A stretch of DNA of 36,320 nt, from IMG/VR virus record IMGVR_UViG_3300025536_000028, positions 1 to 36,320 of that record; one strand, 5' to 3'. The stretch's first letter is position 1; each line of letters starts with the position of its first letter. The notes beneath the pieces are model-generated. The model worked only from the letters and a program-made list of their open reading frames with translations. It was not told where the DNA came from and made no database searches. This DNA comes from a virus. Position numbers and translations under genes: made by a program. Of the stretch, positions 2,599 to 6,968 are shown piece after piece.

Positions 2599-2915
2599 GT
2601 GCGCTCCAGAATCTTTGCCATGACCCCACGGAGTTGGCGGACCTCTTTGATGAGTGCCTTCAGGTCCGATTCTTGTTCTTTTCGATTGTACTCGTCGGCC
2701 AGCAAGCCGAACCGGAGCTGTTGTGCCGGCGACGTTTCCTTGACGTGTACGATATTGGCACCTGGGAAACGGTAGCAATCTGGAAAATCGCTACAATGTC
2801 CATAAACGAGAAGAGACGGTATGCCAACACCTTTAGTGAAATTATAAGATCTGATGTTCGTGAGAACCACGATACATCCGCCTTGATCCGCTGCTAATTT
2901 GATTGTAAGTTCCAT
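2595..2915 (-). CDS. Hypothetical 106-aa protein
   Basis: Begins with strand-loop-strand sequence around CIVVLTNIRSYNFTKGV and ends in a charged, probably coiled-coil helix (about residues 75-104, EYNRKEQESDLKALIKEVRQ). The start is either ATG 2915, which shares its A with the upstream TGA stop (TGATG), or the GTG at 2918; ATG is more likely. It is coupled on both sides: its own stop overlaps the next gene by 4 bases. I do not recognise a family. Confidence 0.65.
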   Translation of the reverse strand: MELTIKLAADQGGCIVVLTNIRSYNFTKGVGIPSLLVYGHCSDFPDCYRFPGANIVHVKETSPAQQLRFGLLADEYNRKEQESDLKALIKEVRQLRGVMAKILERT

Positions 2916-3331
2916 CACACTCTCCCGGTCCTGATTATTGGTCGTACTCCAAGCAATCCGTTCTTGATGAAATCGTCTATGTCTCCATCAAGTACAATGT
3001 CCGGGCTTTTTTCGATTACACCATCCGTGGCTGTCCATCTTTCCCAATGGACAGTTCGCACAACGATGTTCCCATCATTCCTCGGTACATCGTCCGGCGT
3101 CAAGCTATAATGTACAAGTAGCTTAGCGACTAAACGATGGAAAGCTTCTTTGAGGTTTGATTGACGCTCTCGATGACGTGTACATTGAGCGCGAAGTCCG
3201 GAGGCGGGATGATGGATGCGGCAACAATTCTGATGCTTGTTGCGATGCTGGCCACCCTTCCCCGTGCCAGAGAACCAATCAACAACGAAGTCTTTTTTGG
3301 TAAAATTCACGTTCGTCATGTGGCGTTGCAT
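2915..3331 (-). CDS. GGQ-domain release-factor-like protein
   Basis: A 138-residue protein built around class I release factor domain 3. The segment SGTGKGGQHRNKHQNCCRIH has the GGQ motif at residues 26-28, followed by HHPASGLRAQC and RQSNLKEAFHRL, which match the RF1/RF2/PrfH pattern of a basic helix and a conserved R-Q-x-N-x-x-x-A segment. In such proteins GGQ inserts into the ribosomal peptidyl-transferase centre and hydrolyses peptidyl-tRNA. The codon-recognition domains of RF1/RF2 are absent, so a rescue or PrfH-like role is more likely than normal stop decoding. Residues from about 90 on form an extension I do not recognise. ATG 3331 has AAAGGA 9 bases upstream; an in-frame ATG at 3319 is possible. 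First gene of its leftward operon. Confidence 0.85.
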   Translation of the reverse strand: MQRHMTNVNFTKKDFVVDWFSGTGKGGQHRNKHQNCCRIHHPASGLRAQCTRHRERQSNLKEAFHRLVAKLLVHYSLTPDDVPRNDGNIVVRTVHWERWTATDGVIEKSPDIVLDGDIDDFIKNGLLGVRPIIRTGRV

Positions 3332-3355
3332 GTTGTAACGTCCTTTATATATACT
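3326..3355 (+). promoter_or_regulatory. Candidate rightward promoter for the tRNA block
   Basis: TTGCAT (3326-3331), an 18-base spacer and TATACT (3350-3355) lie between the divergent genes starting at 3331 (minus) and 3395 (plus). It would transcribe the 98-aa ORF and the tRNA array. The A/T-rich TATATATA core may also serve the minus strand. Spacer length and -35 are only moderate matches. Confidence 0.4.
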
Positions 3356-3394
3356 ATTGCCAGACAATGCAACAGCGGACGAGGGGCGTAATAC

Positions 3395-3691
3395 ATGTTC
3401 GAAATCCACGAAATCGTTGTCGTGAGAGAAGACATACCTCCCGATGAAGTGCATCCGCGATTGCGGAAATACATCGGCGAGGACGTTGAAATCATCGCAA
3501 AAAGAATCGATGATAAAAACGGACTTGTCTACGACATCATGCACAAAGACGGAAATGCGTTGAGTGCGCGGGAATGCGCTCTCCGGAAAAAGAAACGCCC
3601 CGGAAATGATGTCGAGACCGGATCGTGGGATTTGATCGAGAAGTACATCGGATGGAACCCGGTGAAGGAGAAAGAGAACACAGCGGCGTAA
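3395..3691 (+). CDS. Hypothetical protein upstream of tRNA array
   Basis: A 98-residue protein: MFEIHEIVVVREDIP, a strand-rich middle (GLVYDIMHKDGNALSARECALRKKKRP), then GSWDLIEKYIGWNP. I recognise the general type of small phage protein with a basic patch followed by a GSWD...W.P ending; no function is known. GAGGGG lies 8 bases before the ATG. The last 10 bases are shared with the 5' end of tRNA-Gln: the TAA stop is formed by positions 8-10 of the tRNA. The overlap suggests that the ORF and tRNA are on one transcript and that tRNA processing would remove the stop from the mRNA. Confidence 0.75.
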   Translation: MFEIHEIVVVREDIPPDEVHPRLRKYIGEDVEIIAKRIDDKNGLVYDIMHKDGNALSARECALRKKKRPGNDVETGSWDLIEKYIGWNPVKEKENTAA

Positions 3692-3753
3692 CCGAGCGGT
3701 TCAGGTATCTGGCTTTGACCCAGAGTAGGCAGGTTCGACTCCTGCCGCCGCTT
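3682..3753 (+). tRNA. tRNA-Gln (TTG)
   Basis: Acceptor AGCGGCG pairs with CGCCGCT. The anticodon stem is TCTGG/CCAGA around loop CTTTGAC, giving anticodon TTG. The T arm is GCAGG-TTCGACT-CCTGC. Unlike most of its neighbours, it has no full encoded CCA (TCA follows the acceptor). Its 5' end overlaps the stop of the preceding ORF. Confidence 0.88.
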
Positions 3754-3763
3754 CAGGGACAAA

Positions 3764-3840
3764 TGCGAGGTGGACTGGAATGGCTCCAGCACGGCTTCAT
3801 GCGCCGTTCGACGCGGGTTCGATTCCCGCCCTCGCTACCA
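3764..3840 (+). tRNA. tRNA-Met (CAT)
   Basis: Anticodon stem ACGGC/GCCGT with loop TTCATGC gives anticodon CAT. The T arm is GCGGG-TTCGATT-CCCGC and CCA is encoded. With CCA fixed, the first acceptor pair is T1:T72, a mismatch; a non-paired 1:72 is a hallmark of bacterial initiator tRNA. The D arm is odd (CTGG/CCAG shifted by two). It could be initiator, elongator or lysidine-type Ile2; the sequence alone does not settle this. Confidence 0.85.
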
Positions 3841-3845
3841 TTGAT

Positions 3846-3933
3846 GGAGAGTTGGCCGAGCGGATGAAGGCTCTAGTCTTGAAAACTAGCGGCTCGTAAG
3901 GGTCCGTGGGTTCGAATCCCACACTCTCCTCCA
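3846..3933 (+). tRNA. tRNA-Ser (TGA)
   Basis: Class II tRNA with acceptor GGAGAGT/ACTCTCC, anticodon stem CTAGT/ACTAG with loop CTTGAAA (anticodon TGA), a long variable arm, T arm GTGGG-TTCGAAT-CCCAC and encoded CCA. The discriminator is T rather than the usual G of bacterial tRNA-Ser. Confidence 0.93.
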
Positions 3934-3939
3934 AGATTT

Positions 3940-4015
3940 GGGTCGTTAGCTCAGTCGGTAGAGCAGTAGGCTTTTAACTTATTGGTCGAGAGTTCGAACC
4001 TCTCACGACCCACCA
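3940..4015 (+). tRNA. tRNA-Lys (TTT)
   Basis: Acceptor GGGTCGT/ACGACCC, D arm GCTCAGTCGGTAGAGC, anticodon loop CTTTTAA (anticodon TTT), T arm GAGAG-TTCGAAC-CTCTC, discriminator A and encoded CCA. The anticodon stem contains G-T pairs. Confidence 0.94.
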
Positions 4016-4019
4016 GAAT

Positions 4020-4094
4020 TGAGGTGTAGCTCAGTGGTAGAGCAGTATCCTGATACGGTATTGGCCGGAGGTTCAAATCCTCCCACCTCAACCA
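4020..4094 (+). tRNA. tRNA-Ile (GAT)
   Basis: Acceptor TGAGGTG/CACCTCA, D arm GCTCAGTGGTAGAGC, anticodon stem GTATC/GGTAT with loop CTGATAC (anticodon GAT), T arm GGAGG-TTCAAAT-CCTCC, and ACCA 3' end. A second isoleucine tRNA with anticodon TAT lies at 6990-7066. Confidence 0.93.
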
Positions 4095-4098
4095 AGAT

Positions 4099-4187
4099 GG
4101 AGATGGTATGCAAGCGGTCAAAGCGATTGGGCTGTGACCCCAATTCAGGAAACTGATTCACGGGTTCGAATCCCGTCCATCACCCCA
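4099..4187 (+). tRNA. tRNA-His (GTG) with a class II body
   Basis: The anticodon stem TTGGG/CCCAA encloses CTGTGAC, giving GTG (His). The 3' end has discriminator C73 and an extra 5' G at 4099 that can pair with it; G-1:C73 is the histidine identity signature. Yet the variable region is 16 bases and forms a hairpin (TCAG-GAAA-CTGA), and the D arm has only 3 pairs with an AAGCGGTCAAA loop, both like bacterial tRNA-Tyr. A histidine tRNA should have a short variable loop. The acceptor also has an A2:A71 mismatch. T arm ACGGG-TTCGAAT-CCCGT is normal and CCA is encoded. Confidence 0.82.
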
Positions 4188-4203
4188 CATAAGAGGAATT
4201 GCT

Positions 4204-4485
4204 GTGAAAATCAATAGCAGAGTTGGAGCAGTGTTATCGGTAGACGATAAACACGTGAACCTGCTTGGCTACGGAGTGTACATCGGAGACTTGCGTTGTA
4301 GCATCAGTATCGCATCTATAAATCCCTGCATTCTTCTGGACAATGGAAGATATGTATGGGGTTGCCAATGTTGGTGGGGCGAGGAAGAACGCATGAAAGA
4401 GGAAATCGAATCATGGCTGAACGGCTCTGTGAAAAGAACGATTAACGAAGTTGAGGTCGAGAACGTACCTCCAACAAAGGATTGA
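4204..4485 (+). CDS. Hypothetical protein inside the tRNA array
   Basis: A 93-residue protein starting at GTG 4204 with AAGAGGAA 5 bases upstream. The N-terminal part is strand-rich (RVGAVLSVDDKHVNLLGYGV), the middle has ILLDNGRYVWGCQCWWGEEE with a Cys-Gln-Cys, and the end is a charged helix plus EVEVENVPP. Related small proteins that begin with GAVLS and carry a W(G/W)xxE segment occur in phages, without known role. It stands between tRNA-His and tRNA-Trp, spaced 16 and 6 bases, so it must be read from the tRNA precursor transcript. Confidence 0.72.
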   Translation: MKINSRVGAVLSVDDKHVNLLGYGVYIGDLRCSISIASINPCILLDNGRYVWGCQCWWGEEERMKEEIESWLNGSVKRTINEVEVENVPPTKD

Positions 4486-4491
4486 TTTACT

Positions 4492-4565
4492 CCGGAGATA
4501 GTTCAGTGGTAGAACGGTTGCCTCCAAAACAACGTACCGAGGTTCGATTCCTTGTCTCCGGGCCA
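4492..4565 (+). tRNA. tRNA-Trp (CCA)
   Basis: Acceptor CCGGAGA/TCTCCGG with discriminator G and encoded CCA. Anticodon loop CTCCAAA gives anticodon CCA; its stem GTTGC/ACAAC has one C-A mismatch next to the loop. T arm CGAGG-TTCGATT-CCTTG. Confidence 0.9.
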
Positions 4566-4572
4566 ATTTCAC

Positions 4573-4648
4573 GCGACGTTAACTCAGTGGCTAGAGTGCC
4601 TGCCTGTCTAGTAGGAAGTCATGGGTTCGAATCCCATACGTCGCGCCA
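4573..4648 (+). tRNA. tRNA-Asp (GTC)
   Basis: Acceptor GCGACGT/ACGTCGC, discriminator G, encoded CCA. Anticodon stem CCTGC/GTAGG around CTGTCTA gives GTC. T arm ATGGG-TTCGAAT-CCCAT. Confidence 0.93.
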
Positions 4649-4656
4649 AAGATAGA

Positions 4657-4731
4657 GAACCTGTAGCATAATGGTCAGTGCAACAGACTTTCAATCTGTC
4701 GATTCGGGTTCAATTCCCGGCAGGTTCACCA
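4657..4731 (+). tRNA. tRNA-Glu (TTC)
   Basis: Acceptor GAACCTG/CAGGTTC, anticodon stem ACAGA/TCTGT with loop CTTTCAA (anticodon TTC), a T arm with TTCAATT loop, discriminator A and encoded CCA. Confidence 0.93.
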
Positions 4732-4737
4732 AACAAT

Positions 4738-4815
4738 TGGAGGGTAGCAATCCGGGTGATTGCGCTCGGCTGTTAACCGAGAATGAGGTGGGTTCGAGCC
4801 CCACCCCTCCAGCCA
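4738..4815 (+). tRNA. tRNA-Asn (GTT)
   Basis: Acceptor TGGAGGG/CCCTCCA with discriminator G and encoded CCA. Anticodon stem CTCGG/CCGAG around CTGTTAA gives GTT. T arm GTGGG-TTCGAGC-CCCAC. Confidence 0.93.
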
Positions 4816-4821
4816 AATATA

Positions 4822-4897
4822 GCGGGTATAGCTCAGTTGGTAGAGCATCGTCCTTCCAAGTCGAATGTCGTGAGTTCGAGTCTCACTGCCCGCTCCA
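4822..4897 (+). tRNA. tRNA-Gly (TCC)
   Basis: Acceptor GCGGGTA/TGCCCGC with discriminator T (usual for Gly) and encoded CCA. Anticodon loop CTTCCAA gives TCC; the stem TCGTC/GTCGA has one T-T mismatch. D arm GCTCAGTTGGTAGAGC, T arm GTGAG-TTCGAGT-CTCAC. Confidence 0.92.
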
Positions 4898-4911
4898 TCT
4901 TATTTGATTAT

Positions 4912-4989
4912 GGGGGTGTATCCCAATTGGAAGAGGAATTGGATTTAAAATCCATACAAGTGTGAGTTCGAATCTCACCACCCCTACCA
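4912..4989 (+). tRNA. tRNA-Leu (TAA) with a short variable loop
   Basis: Acceptor GGGGGTG/CACCCCT (first pair G-T), discriminator A and encoded CCA. Anticodon loop TTTAAAA between TTGGA and TCCAT gives TAA. The variable region between TCCAT and the T stem GTGAG is only ACAAGT (6 bases), whereas bacterial tRNA-Leu has a long class II arm. The D arm TCC/GGA has three good pairs. Confidence 0.85.
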
Positions 4990-5018
4990 CATCGAAGGTG
5001 CGTTCAATGTTCCTAACA

Positions 5019-5095
5019 GCGCCAATAGCTCAACTGGATAGAGCAGCGGAGTTCTAATCCGCATGTTGGGGGTTCGAATCCCTCTTGGCGCGCCA
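5019..5095 (+). tRNA. tRNA-Arg (TCT)
   Basis: Acceptor GCGCCAA/TTGGCGC with discriminator G and encoded CCA. Anticodon stem GCGGA/TCCGC around GTTCTAA gives TCT. T arm GGGGG-TTCGAAT-CCCTC. Last tRNA of the rightward array. Confidence 0.94.
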
Positions 5096-5110: not shown

Positions 5111-5512
5111 ATGCATCACAAGAGACACAGACCGAAGAATAGAAGAGCCGGCTGCCTAATGTGCAAGCCGCACAAGGCCAATGGAGTCAGTGACTCTCGG
5201 GCCTTGAGGCCACAAGATTTACGTCGCATTGACGTACTGGTACCACCCAAGCACCACCGCAAGAAAGTGCGGAAAGTCTGGCTCCTTACAGGTATTTGGA
5301 AAGGAGATAATGCCCGTCCTTGGCATCACAAGCCGTGGACGATGCGGTACGAAAAAGAGCGCGACGCCTTACAGGCTAAGGCGTCGCATGAGAAATCCAG
5401 ATATCTTTGTAATTACGAGTGGACGATTACGAACCTTGGTGCGAGTGATCGTAATATGACTGAACCGACTCCGCCTCCTCTGATTTCCGATGATTATGTC
5501 CCATCGCTCTGA
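5111..5512 (+). CDS. RAGCLMCKPHK-motif small basic protein
   Basis: A 133-residue, strongly basic protein that opens MHHKRHRPKNRRAGCLMCKP and goes on HKANG. I recognise this N-terminal motif (basic stretch, AGCLMCKPHK.NG) as shared by many small phage and bacterial proteins, sometimes mislabelled as Rrp5-like; the CxxC could bind a metal or RNA. The rest is basic and Trp-rich (WLLTGIWKGDNARPWHHKPW). No strong ribosome site precedes the ATG. The 3' end overlaps the convergent VWA gene by 86 bases, which is unusual; the tail beyond about residue 105 may be poorly conserved. Confidence 0.65.
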   Translation: MHHKRHRPKNRRAGCLMCKPHKANGVSDSRALRPQDLRRIDVLVPPKHHRKKVRKVWLLTGIWKGDNARPWHHKPWTMRYEKERDALQAKASHEKSRYLCNYEWTITNLGASDRNMTEPTPPPLISDDYVPSL

Positions 5513-6086
5513 CGTTGGTTGACAAGAGAGCAGAGGCTTCGAACGTCGCTAAGATGCCTCCAGAGGTTTTCTCTACAGCAGCGATATTCGACGCCATGAT
5601 CCCGTAACTCATGCCAGCGGCGAATGCATTCGCATCTGCCGTACCGATGAACGAGAATACCCAATTACCTGCCTCTTGCTCTTTGATGAGCTTCACGATC
5701 ATATCTTTCGTGTACTCCTTCGAAGCGTTCTCTTGTCCGTCCGTAACAATGAGACACAAGACGTTATCCGGCTTGTCTTTCTTGGCTCGCTTCTCGATAG
5801 ATTCCAACATCGTCTTCGTGGCACGACCGATAGCGTCGTTCAGTGCGGTAGATCCACGCGGAATGTAGGTCTTGCTATCAAGTGCCTTGACATCACCAAT
5901 CGCAACTCGATCGTAAACAACCTCGTATTCGTGGTCGAATTGAGTCAAGGTAAGAAACGCCTTACCCTTCTCTTTCTTCTGTTTCTCGATGAACGTGTTG
6001 AATCCACCGATCACATCCTTGGTAATGCTGGCCATCGACCCTGATCGATCCAGCACCACCAAAATATCAGTTATCTTACTTTTCAT
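5427..6086 (-). CDS. von Willebrand factor A domain protein
   Basis: A 219-residue VWA protein. The MIDAS metal site is complete: DRSGS at residues 13-17 (DxSxS), Thr80 in RGSTALNDAIG, and Asp116 in VTDGQEN. Such domains bind Mg2+ and mediate protein contacts. The protein has no signal peptide or TM segment, so it is likely cytoplasmic. Residues from about 190 to the end are low-complexity and polar. It overlaps the end of the Fic gene by 11 bases, with AGGAT before ATG 6086, so the two are translationally coupled and may work together. Partner and role are unknown. Confidence 0.85.
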   Translation of the reverse strand: MKSKITDILVVLDRSGSMASITKDVIGGFNTFIEKQKKEKGKAFLTLTQFDHEYEVVYDRVAIGDVKALDSKTYIPRGSTALNDAIGRATKTMLESIEKRAKKDKPDNVLCLIVTDGQENASKEYTKDMIVKLIKEQEAGNWVFSFIGTADANAFAAGMSYGIMASNIAAVEKTSGGILATFEASALLSTNVRAMGHNHRKSEEAESVQSYYDHSHQGS

Positions 6087-6561
6087 ATCCTGTTTTACTC
6101 TCGTGTTCTGCTAAGGTTTGGTAATAGAAAGCACGCAAGAAGCCAAATCCTAAAGCCTCTCGCATCCTGTTCTCTTTGAACATCATGTAGAGCCAGATAG
6201 CTCTTCCACTACGTCCGTTACCATCCATGAACGGATGTAACTTCTCGTAGTCTAAATGTACGGCATGAGGAGTTCCATCTCGTTTGTTCACTTTGAGTAG
6301 AATTCCTTCTAATATGAACCTGACATGCTCACCACCTCGAGGAGGAATGTGGTTCCCCACGCGAACATTCATGTGCGGGAGCGTTCGTAATTTAGCTCCT
6401 GGCTGAACTACATCAACAAAGTCACAAATATCTTGGACAGTAAGATATCTGGCTTTTTCGAGCAAAGCGTGATGTGCATTTATCTCGCTAGCCAGCGGAT
6501 CACGATTGATGTTCTCAATCTTGTTTGATTCACGAACGAATTCTGTCAGATCCCATTCCAT
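6076..6561 (-). CDS. Fic family protein (AMPylase-type)
   Basis: A 161-residue Fic domain protein. The active-site loop HPFMDGNGRSGR (residues 109-120) matches HxFx(D/E)GNGRxxR, with His109 as catalytic base; such enzymes usually transfer AMP from ATP to a target hydroxyl. An N-terminal SNKIEN (residues 12-17) fits the inhibitory (S/T)xxxE(G/N) motif, so this looks like a class II Fic protein that holds its own inhibitor, with Glu16 blocking the ATP gamma-phosphate position. Start 6561 is chosen because GAGGAAA precedes it; the frame upstream runs through tRNA-Thr. Coupled to the downstream VWA gene. A Doc-like kinase or a host-modifying role are both possible. Confidence 0.88.
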   Translation of the reverse strand: MEWDLTEFVRESNKIENINRDPLASEINAHHALLEKARYLTVQDICDFVDVVQPGAKLRTLPHMNVRVGNHIPPRGGEHVRFILEGILLKVNKRDGTPHAVHLDYEKLHPFMDGNGRSGRAIWLYMMFKENRMREALGFGFLRAFYYQTLAEHESKTGYEK

Positions 6562-6578
6562 GTTTTTTTTCCTCAATA

Positions 6579-6654
6579 TGGAGCCGGTTGAGGGATTCGA
6601 ACCCCCGACATCTAACTTACAAAGATAGCGCTCTTCCGTCTGAGCTAAACCGGC
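6579..6654 (-). tRNA. tRNA-Thr (TGT)
   Basis: Minus strand. Acceptor GCCGGTT/AACCGGC, discriminator T and encoded CCA. Anticodon loop TTTGTAA gives TGT; stem CTATC/GTTAG has one T-T mismatch. D arm GCTCAGACGGAAGAGC. Its first base is the last base of the preceding gene's TAG stop. Confidence 0.91.
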
Positions 6655-6968
6655 TATGTACCGTAATTCTTTTTCCGTTCTGCTCTCAGGCAATCCGAGT
6701 TTGCTTTTCCAAACGGATTCGGGTCCGTCATCACATCGCTGCCGTGGATGTAATCATAGGTCAATTGAATTATACGGCCGTCTTGTGGGTACGTGATGCT
6801 CCATAGCTCGAGCGCGCGCATGGGATTATTCGAGTTAACAACTCCAGCGACATTTACAGCCCAAACACCACATCGATGTTCTGGTATCACACTAAGATCA
6901 ATCGAACCCAGATCCTCCGCATGAGCGATAGATGATGTTAGTGCTGCAATCATGAGTAATTTCTTCAT
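6654..6968 (-). CDS. Small secreted protein with signal peptide
   Basis: A 104-residue protein whose first 17 residues, MKKLLMIAALTSSIAHA, form a Sec signal peptide with AHA before the likely cleavage site. The mature part has two Cys residues (in HRCGVW and NSDCLR) that could form one disulfide in the periplasm. Middle strands AVNVAGVVNSNN and ELWSITYPQDGRIIQLTYDY look like a small beta fold. The TAG stop touches the tRNA-Thr 5' end. Phage-encoded periplasmic proteins may act in superinfection exclusion or surface change, but nothing here shows that directly. Confidence 0.72.
   Translation of the reverse strand: MKKLLMIAALTSSIAHAEDLGSIDLSVIPEHRCGVWAVNVAGVVNSNNPMRALELWSITYPQDGRIIQLTYDYIHGSDVMTDPNPFGKANSDCLRAERKKNYGT

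Follow-up and report, generated by a model that had tools for sequence, protein, structure and literature searches.

Histidine transfer RNAs (tRNAs) of cells are class I molecules, and the long variable arms of class II are found there in leucine, serine, bacterial tyrosine and selenocysteine tRNAs. How far this restriction is needed and how tRNA identities switch is an old question. The identity read by Escherichia coli histidyl-tRNA synthetase (HisRS) consists of the G-1:C73 pair with a contribution of the anticodon; minihelices with G-1:C73 were charged, and the pair conferred histidine acceptance when moved onto a tRNA-Ala minihelix (PMC9976931). A73 is critical for tyrosine identity, and the A73C change abolished leucylation of a minimal tRNA-Leu (PMC9976931). 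In E. coli, histidine was inserted by engineered tRNAs that combine a long arm with G-1:C73, some of them only after the variable arm had been adjusted (PMC7590224). Searches of open-licence full texts found no description of a naturally occurring class II tRNA-His. We describe here a gene of this kind at positions 4099-4187 of a linear viral fragment (IMG/VR record IMGVR_UViG_3300025536_000028; 36.3 kilobases, the whole stretch being called the window below). With a probability of roughly 0.74, it is a working class II histidine tRNA that would be charged by the host HisRS.

The gene reads as a tRNA-His(GTG) of class II build. ARAGORN called tRNA-His(gtg) at 4100-4187 and Rfam RF00005 matched 4100-4184 (42.7 bits, E-value 5.8e-6); neither gave a better standard fold. 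A previous reading made from the letters alone (the sequence-only reading) had delimited the gene exactly, 4099 being G-1 and 4187 the A of the encoded CCA, and had correctly recognized its histidine signature. As in canonical tRNA-His, GTG stands in a 7-nucleotide (nt) anticodon loop after U33, and the encoded G-1 (4099) can pair with C73 (4184). The class I build with a short variable loop is missing. Because of its 16-nt variable arm we treat the gene as a tRNA-His variant of class II build and not as a canonical member. The arm reads T-TCAG-GAAA-CTGA-TT-C and has a stem of 4 base pairs (bp) with a GAAA cap, and the D stem TGC/GCG comprises 3 bp, one of them G.U; both features had been pointed out before as those of a class II tRNA. 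The acceptor is of 7 bp (plus G-1:C73) and the T stem of 5 bp, which differs from the 8/4 or 9/3 branch of selC* tRNAs and allo-tRNAs. The core is of the bacterial tRNA-Tyr type, with a 3-bp D stem, a Tyr-type D loop and two unpaired nt before C48; where tRNA-Tyr has A73 and GTA, the gene has C73 and GTG (position 36 is G). The pattern TGTGA-N19..31-GGTTCRAATCC had a single occurrence in the window and was absent from all 100 shuffles.

The resemblance to tRNA-Tyr noted by the sequence-only reading was borne out for the core. With the anticodon and N73 masked, five of the six viral tRNAs nearest to the body were tRNA-Tyr, which accounted for 151 of the 2,772 references. The nearest D arms were those of viral tRNA-Tyr, the k-nearest-neighbour (kNN) class of the D arm was Tyr, and the variable-arm layout (1,3) is the commonest one in viral tRNA-Tyr (54/150), tRNA-Leu and tRNA-Ser favouring (0,1) and (1,1), respectively. 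The acceptor and T stems are different. Profiles of class I tRNA-His and of the class II tRNAs for Tyr, Leu and Ser, all viral, scored the acceptor at -18.6 for His vs -30.3 for Tyr (about 12 bits for His), and the T stem (log2 scores) at -6.3 for His, -10.1 for Leu, -12.9 for Ser and -19.3 for Tyr. Of the identity change by anticodon and acceptor that had been proposed, the histidine identity on a Tyr-like core is thus supported, but the proposal falls short for the T stem, which is histidine-type too by about 13 bits; the gene is therefore a His/Tyr mosaic that differs from tRNA-Tyr in more than anticodon and acceptor.

Beyond the window, viral contigs and the isolate Arthrobacter phage Talia1610 yielded 42 more distinct genes for class II tRNA-His. 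The scans of viral contigs used patterns in which a GTG anticodon loop is spaced from the T loop as in class II tRNAs; besides many chance matches, they gave a coherent group of tRNA-His whose variable arms measure 9-20 nt. After removal of duplicates and one doubtful gene, the group comprised 43 distinct genes in 42 records, the window and Talia1610 included. C73 is present in 42/43 of them vs 4/618 other viral class II tRNAs and G-1 in 37/43 vs 23/618 (Fisher 1e-61 and 1e-37, both calculated before the doubtful gene was removed); 36 of the 43 genes have both. The first two scan patterns had no C73 requirement, and C73 was found in 38/39 genes after the loci from the pattern demanding CCCA were excluded. 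Among the other viral isotypes of the set, Tyr and Ile have A at position 73, Trp has G, Cys has T and Ser mostly G, and no other common isotype has C73 as a rule. From these counts, N73 and position -1 track the anticodon and not the body.

The mosaic build is a property of the whole group. The histidine profile was the best one for the acceptor stem in 34/43 and for the T stem in 32/43 genes, whereas the D arms were classified as Tyr (16), Ser (12), Leu (11) and His (4), which means class II type in 39/43; in the control, D arms of class I tRNA-His were assigned to His in 107/122 and to Tyr, Leu or Ser in 15/122. The variable-arm layout matches the D-arm type, which is Tyr in the window and L218 and Leu in L028, L222 and L558. 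Class II tRNA-His genes are thus mosaics of a histidine acceptor and T stem with Tyr, Leu or Ser D and variable arms. Over the whole set, the variable-arm stems were only weakly above shuffles (mean 3.7 vs 3.3 bp). Six loci (L013, L195, L220, L249, L252 and L407) have C73 with T at position -1 and hence no encoded G-1:C73 pair. Seven others (L140, L144, L153, L157, L188, L189 and L230) have in common two acceptor-stem mismatches with the ends intact; in L144, L188 and L230 these are U.U at 5:68 and 6:67.

In trees built on the D arm, anticodon stem and variable arm (the core), the window gene grouped with the tRNA-His of L218 and L244, adjoining tRNA-Tyr, and the Leu-type members L028, L222, L255 and L558 lay across a supported branch from the Tyr-core members. 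The idea of a change private to this phage has thus to be abandoned, as L218 and L244 bear a tRNA-His on the same core; these relatives are tRNA-His with the anticodon at the same position and not tRNA-Tyr with a shifted anticodon. The approximately unbiased (AU) test of one clade over 53 columns gave p 0.10, so that a single origin is not formally rejected, and its eight members were picked by D-arm type. Repeated origin of the mosaics in phages, on cores of Tyr, Leu and Ser type, is thus likely but not proven. Either a tRNA-Tyr may have been given histidine ends or a tRNA-His a class II core.

Class II genes seem to be uncommon among viral tRNA-His. Loci sampled for class I tRNA-His contained 2 class II genes in 84, and no convincing one was present among about 30 tRNA-His of loci sampled for tRNA-Tyr. 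When the window tRNA was searched by BLAST, phages yielded only class I tRNA-His matching its 3' half, and E. coli genomes yielded no match. A BLAST search of phages with class II tRNA-His sequences totalling 982 nt returned only partial class I tRNA-His, one Tyr and one Leu tRNA, and a second batch led to Talia1610. Two candidates were rejected: the tRNA-His(gtg) of L270 was dropped as it has no U33, and the D-loop pattern GCGGTCAAAG-N10-TGTGA matched 79 stretches of viral contigs with just 3 tRNA genes in total, so that these matches are due to chance.

The contrast between viruses and cells is strong. Viral contigs contained 19 matches to the pattern CTGTGA-N18..30-GGTTCRANTCC-N10-CCCA, 16 of which fell on tRNA-His genes that ARAGORN calls with a class II build; the genome contigs, which cover 84,980 bacterial and archaeal species (257 gigabases), contained 7 matches, none on a tRNA. 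The pattern TTGTGR-N18..30-GGTTCRANTCC found no tRNA-His in 795 genomes of two phyla; of 50 loci read, 3 were on tRNAs, all tRNA-Arg, and 17 more matches were judged from the matched letters alone. These cellular patterns were strict, and prophage copies or sequence variants could escape them.

The tRNA-His of Talia1610 (PQ559666, 107022-107107) has G-1, C73, CCA, a 15-nt arm (UGUCAGAAAUGACAU) and a Leu-like D arm. Its homologue in Arthrobacter phage Racecar is 90.7% identical and annotated as tRNA-His, and the other near-full-length BLAST matches are annotated as tRNA-Leu. Pairing is kept between the two phages at 4:69 (G.U vs U-A), 5:68 (U-A vs C-G) and in the D stem (C-G vs A-U), and G-1, C73, the anticodon and the entire variable arm are identical. 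Such pairing-preserving changes around constant identity elements are the pattern of a folded and selected tRNA. An RNA ligase gene lies directly upstream of the class II tRNA-His in both phages (L558 3007-3975, L564 2014-2982), as if tRNA repair and this tRNA might belong together there.

The facts on HisRS, on engineered tRNAs and on A73 make a histidine tRNA reading CAC and CAU the simplest reading of the window gene. Once transcribed, the tRNA would carry a G-1 that is supplied by the gene, left in place by RNase P and paired with C73. The host HisRS would recognize G-1:C73 and the GUG anticodon without needing a short variable loop, and C73 and G-1 together would exclude the tyrosyl-, leucyl- and seryl-tRNA synthetases (TyrRS, LeuRS and SerRS). 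Charging with histidine by the host enzyme is expected, since HisRS takes its cues from G-1:C73 and the anticodon and accepts a long arm. The charged tRNA would then read CAC and CAU in phage messenger RNAs; in 23 window genes, CAT is used 63 times and CAC 41 times. The histidine-type T stem might tune the binding of elongation factor Tu.

Two alternatives concern the build itself. The tRNA could be a missense tRNA whose class II core, of Tyr type in the window, is charged by TyrRS (or LeuRS or SerRS for other cores) so that histidine codons are misread; the precedent is provided by the V-arm-bearing nematode nev-tRNAs, which are leucine-charged in vitro (PMC4300185). In that case the discriminator and acceptor would be expected to suit the synthetase of the body, but C73, G-1, the acceptor and the T stem are all histidine-type, the signature is kept across the group (C73 in 42/43, G-1 in 37/43), and position 73 is just where tyrosine and leucine charging are sensitive (PMC9976931), so we consider misreading very improbable. 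It is also improbable that the gene is an ordinary class I tRNA-His with an insertion in the variable loop and no contribution of a class II core. The acceptor and T stems resemble tRNA-His and several class II tRNA-His have a class I tRNA-His as their overall nearest neighbour, but the D arm is altered as well (3-bp stem, Tyr-like loop), D arms of Tyr, Leu or Ser type occur in 39/43 vs 15/122 class I genes, and the variable-arm layout tracks the D-arm type.

Several observations weigh against a working histidine tRNA in the window. The acceptor has an A2.A71 mismatch (4101/4182) where most of the group have U2-A71, and there is a U10.G25 pair. The RNAfold minimum is not the cloverleaf (-29.5 vs -22.6 kcal/mol for the cloverleaf); the gap of about 7-9.3 kcal/mol is the largest among the 16 tRNAs of the window, and the median for viral class II tRNAs generally is 3-5 kcal/mol. 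The sequence-only reading had mentioned neither the mismatch nor this competing fold. Six of the 43 genes of the group have no G-1. One early engineered long-arm His tRNA was uncharged until its variable arm was altered, so the tolerance of HisRS for a long arm is not automatic (PMC7590224). The window copy may thus be a weak or decaying member of the group. That it is decaying or already non-functional, even if the class as a whole works, would fit the mismatch, the weak cloverleaf energy and an Rfam score that is next-to-lowest of the 16; we hold this to be unlikely, since the anticodon, T and variable stems, G-1, C73 and CCA are all intact, acceptor mismatches average 0.5 in class I and 0.7 in class II viral tRNA-His, and this is the only tRNA-His of the window. 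There is a minor chance, somewhat better than that of decay, that the long arm was selected to hide the tRNA from host nucleases cutting class I tRNA-His, or as a decoy, with translation secondary. The adjoining RNA ligase gene in Talia1610 and Racecar and the class change of other isotypes in arrays with class II tRNA-His (36/288 vs 23/695) speak for evasion, but we know of no nuclease that targets tRNA-His via its short variable loop, and the variable arm itself makes a target. A histidine tRNA serving translation remains the preferred reading.

The features of the gene and its cluster are listed in the table.

Features of the class II tRNA-His gene and the tRNA cluster in the window
Feature	Position	Strand	Basis
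Cluster of 13 tRNA genes: Gln, Met, Ser, Lys, Ile, His, Trp, Asp, Glu, Asn, Gly, Leu, Arg	3682..5095	+	tRNA calls
G-1, extra 5' nucleotide of tRNA-His, opposite C73	4099..4099	+	sequence; G-1 frequency in class II tRNA-His
Class II tRNA-His(GTG) gene, CCA encoded	4100..4187	+	ARAGORN; Rfam RF00005
Acceptor 5' strand GAGATGG, A2 opposite A71 (4182)	4100..4106	+	sequence; viral class I tRNA-His profile
Positions 8-26: D stem TGC/GCG and loop AAGCGGTCAAA, tyrosine type	4107..4126	+	nearest viral D arms; kNN class Tyr
Anticodon arm TTGGG-CTGTGAC-CCCAA, anticodon GTG 4134-4136	4127..4143	+	ARAGORN
16-nt variable arm: U44, TCAG/CTGA stem (4145-4148/4153-4156), GAAA loop, UU, C48	4144..4159	+	ARAGORN; layout
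T arm ACGGG-TTCGAAT-CCCGT, histidine-type T stem	4160..4176	+	profile scores
Acceptor 3' strand CCATCAC (4177-4183), C73 (4184), CCA (4185-4187)	4177..4187	+	sequence; C73 frequency

The window carries genes for the head and tail of a phage, with members of the major head protein, tape measure and tail fibre families, and its capsid protein shows 37-43% identity to capsids of the HK97 type from Burkholderia, Pseudomonas and other phages. The 16 tRNA genes of the window, 13 of which form the cluster, include one tRNA-His and no tRNA-Tyr. The search for relatives of the phage with a tRNA array gave no more than two contigs, whose capsid proteins are 43% identical and in which no tRNA was found. 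Just upstream of the cluster, 2915-3544 (-) encodes an RF-1 (peptide chain release factor) domain protein (E-value 9e-13), possibly a ribosome-rescue or release factor carried by the phage. A Fic/DOC-family protein (6076-6693 (-), E-value 1.9e-6) adjoins a von Willebrand A domain protein (5427-6086 (-)), both beside the tRNA genes. The tRNA-Lys at 3938-4015 shares 86% identity over 78 nt with the attP/tRNA-Lys of Haemophilus phages HP1, HP2 and S2; this match hints at a gammaproteobacterial host.

Other isotypes also change class in viruses. In viral loci sampled for tRNA-Tyr (L265-L344 and further), 23/695 (~3%) tRNAs of normally class I isotypes had class II variable arms, and in loci with class II tRNA-His 36/288. 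These class-swapped tRNAs keep the discriminator of their anticodon (Asn G or T, Trp G, Cys T, Lys, Ile, Pro and Met A). Conversely, the window tRNA-Leu(TAA) at 4912-4989 is a class I tRNA-Leu with a 6-nt variable loop, and 20/67 (~30%) sampled viral tRNA-Leu had no long arm, all with A73. Several viral isotypes with the wrong variable-arm class and the right discriminator may be the larger story. Only tentatively do we propose that phages broke the cellular link between class and amino acid, the class II tRNA-His having been built repeatedly on Tyr, Leu and Ser cores within a wider exchange of variable arms (class II Asn, Ile, Lys, Trp, Cys, Pro and Met; class I Leu) that would be held by selection, possibly by tRNA-cutting defences. 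If natural class II tRNA-His are confirmed, those of two cultured Arthrobacter phages included, HisRS identity would be movable onto different cores in nature. Such tRNAs open identity switching to direct tests, offer natural scaffolds for orthogonal tRNAs and bear on whether phage tRNAs serve as a decoding supplement or to outlast tRNA-cutting defences.

Compared with known tRNAs, the window gene shares GTG, G-1:C73 and histidine-type acceptor and T stems with canonical bacterial and phage tRNA-His, which have a 4-5 nt variable loop and a class I D arm in place of the 16-nt arm and the 3-bp Tyr-type D stem. With bacterial and phage tRNA-Tyr it shares the D-loop sequence, the 3-bp D stem and a variable-arm layout with UU before C48, but these have A73 (150/150 viral tRNA-Tyr), GTA and other T stems, whereas the window gene has C73, G-1 and GTG. 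The selC* tRNA-Cys and allo-tRNAs are natural long-variable-arm tRNAs outside Leu, Ser, Tyr and selenocysteine; they are bacterial, have the altered 8/4 or 9/3 branch and are not for histidine (PMC7609411). Mitochondrial alloacceptor remolding (PMC4783518) and nuclear anticodon shifts (PMC3923123) similarly yield bodies that group with the tRNAs of another amino acid, but in mitochondria and eukaryotic nuclei; here this is seen in phages, and the structural class and T stem have changed too. The nematode nev-tRNAs are class II tRNAs bearing anticodons of class I amino acids and are charged with leucine in vitro against the anticodon (PMC4300185), while in the window gene N73 and position -1 agree with it. 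The engineered histidine allo-tRNAs H072 and H073 (Mukai 2020, PMC7590224) likewise combine a long variable arm with G-1:C73 and are charged by E. coli HisRS; they are man-made, with a 9/3 branch and an amber anticodon, whereas the window gene is natural, with a 7/5 branch and GTG.
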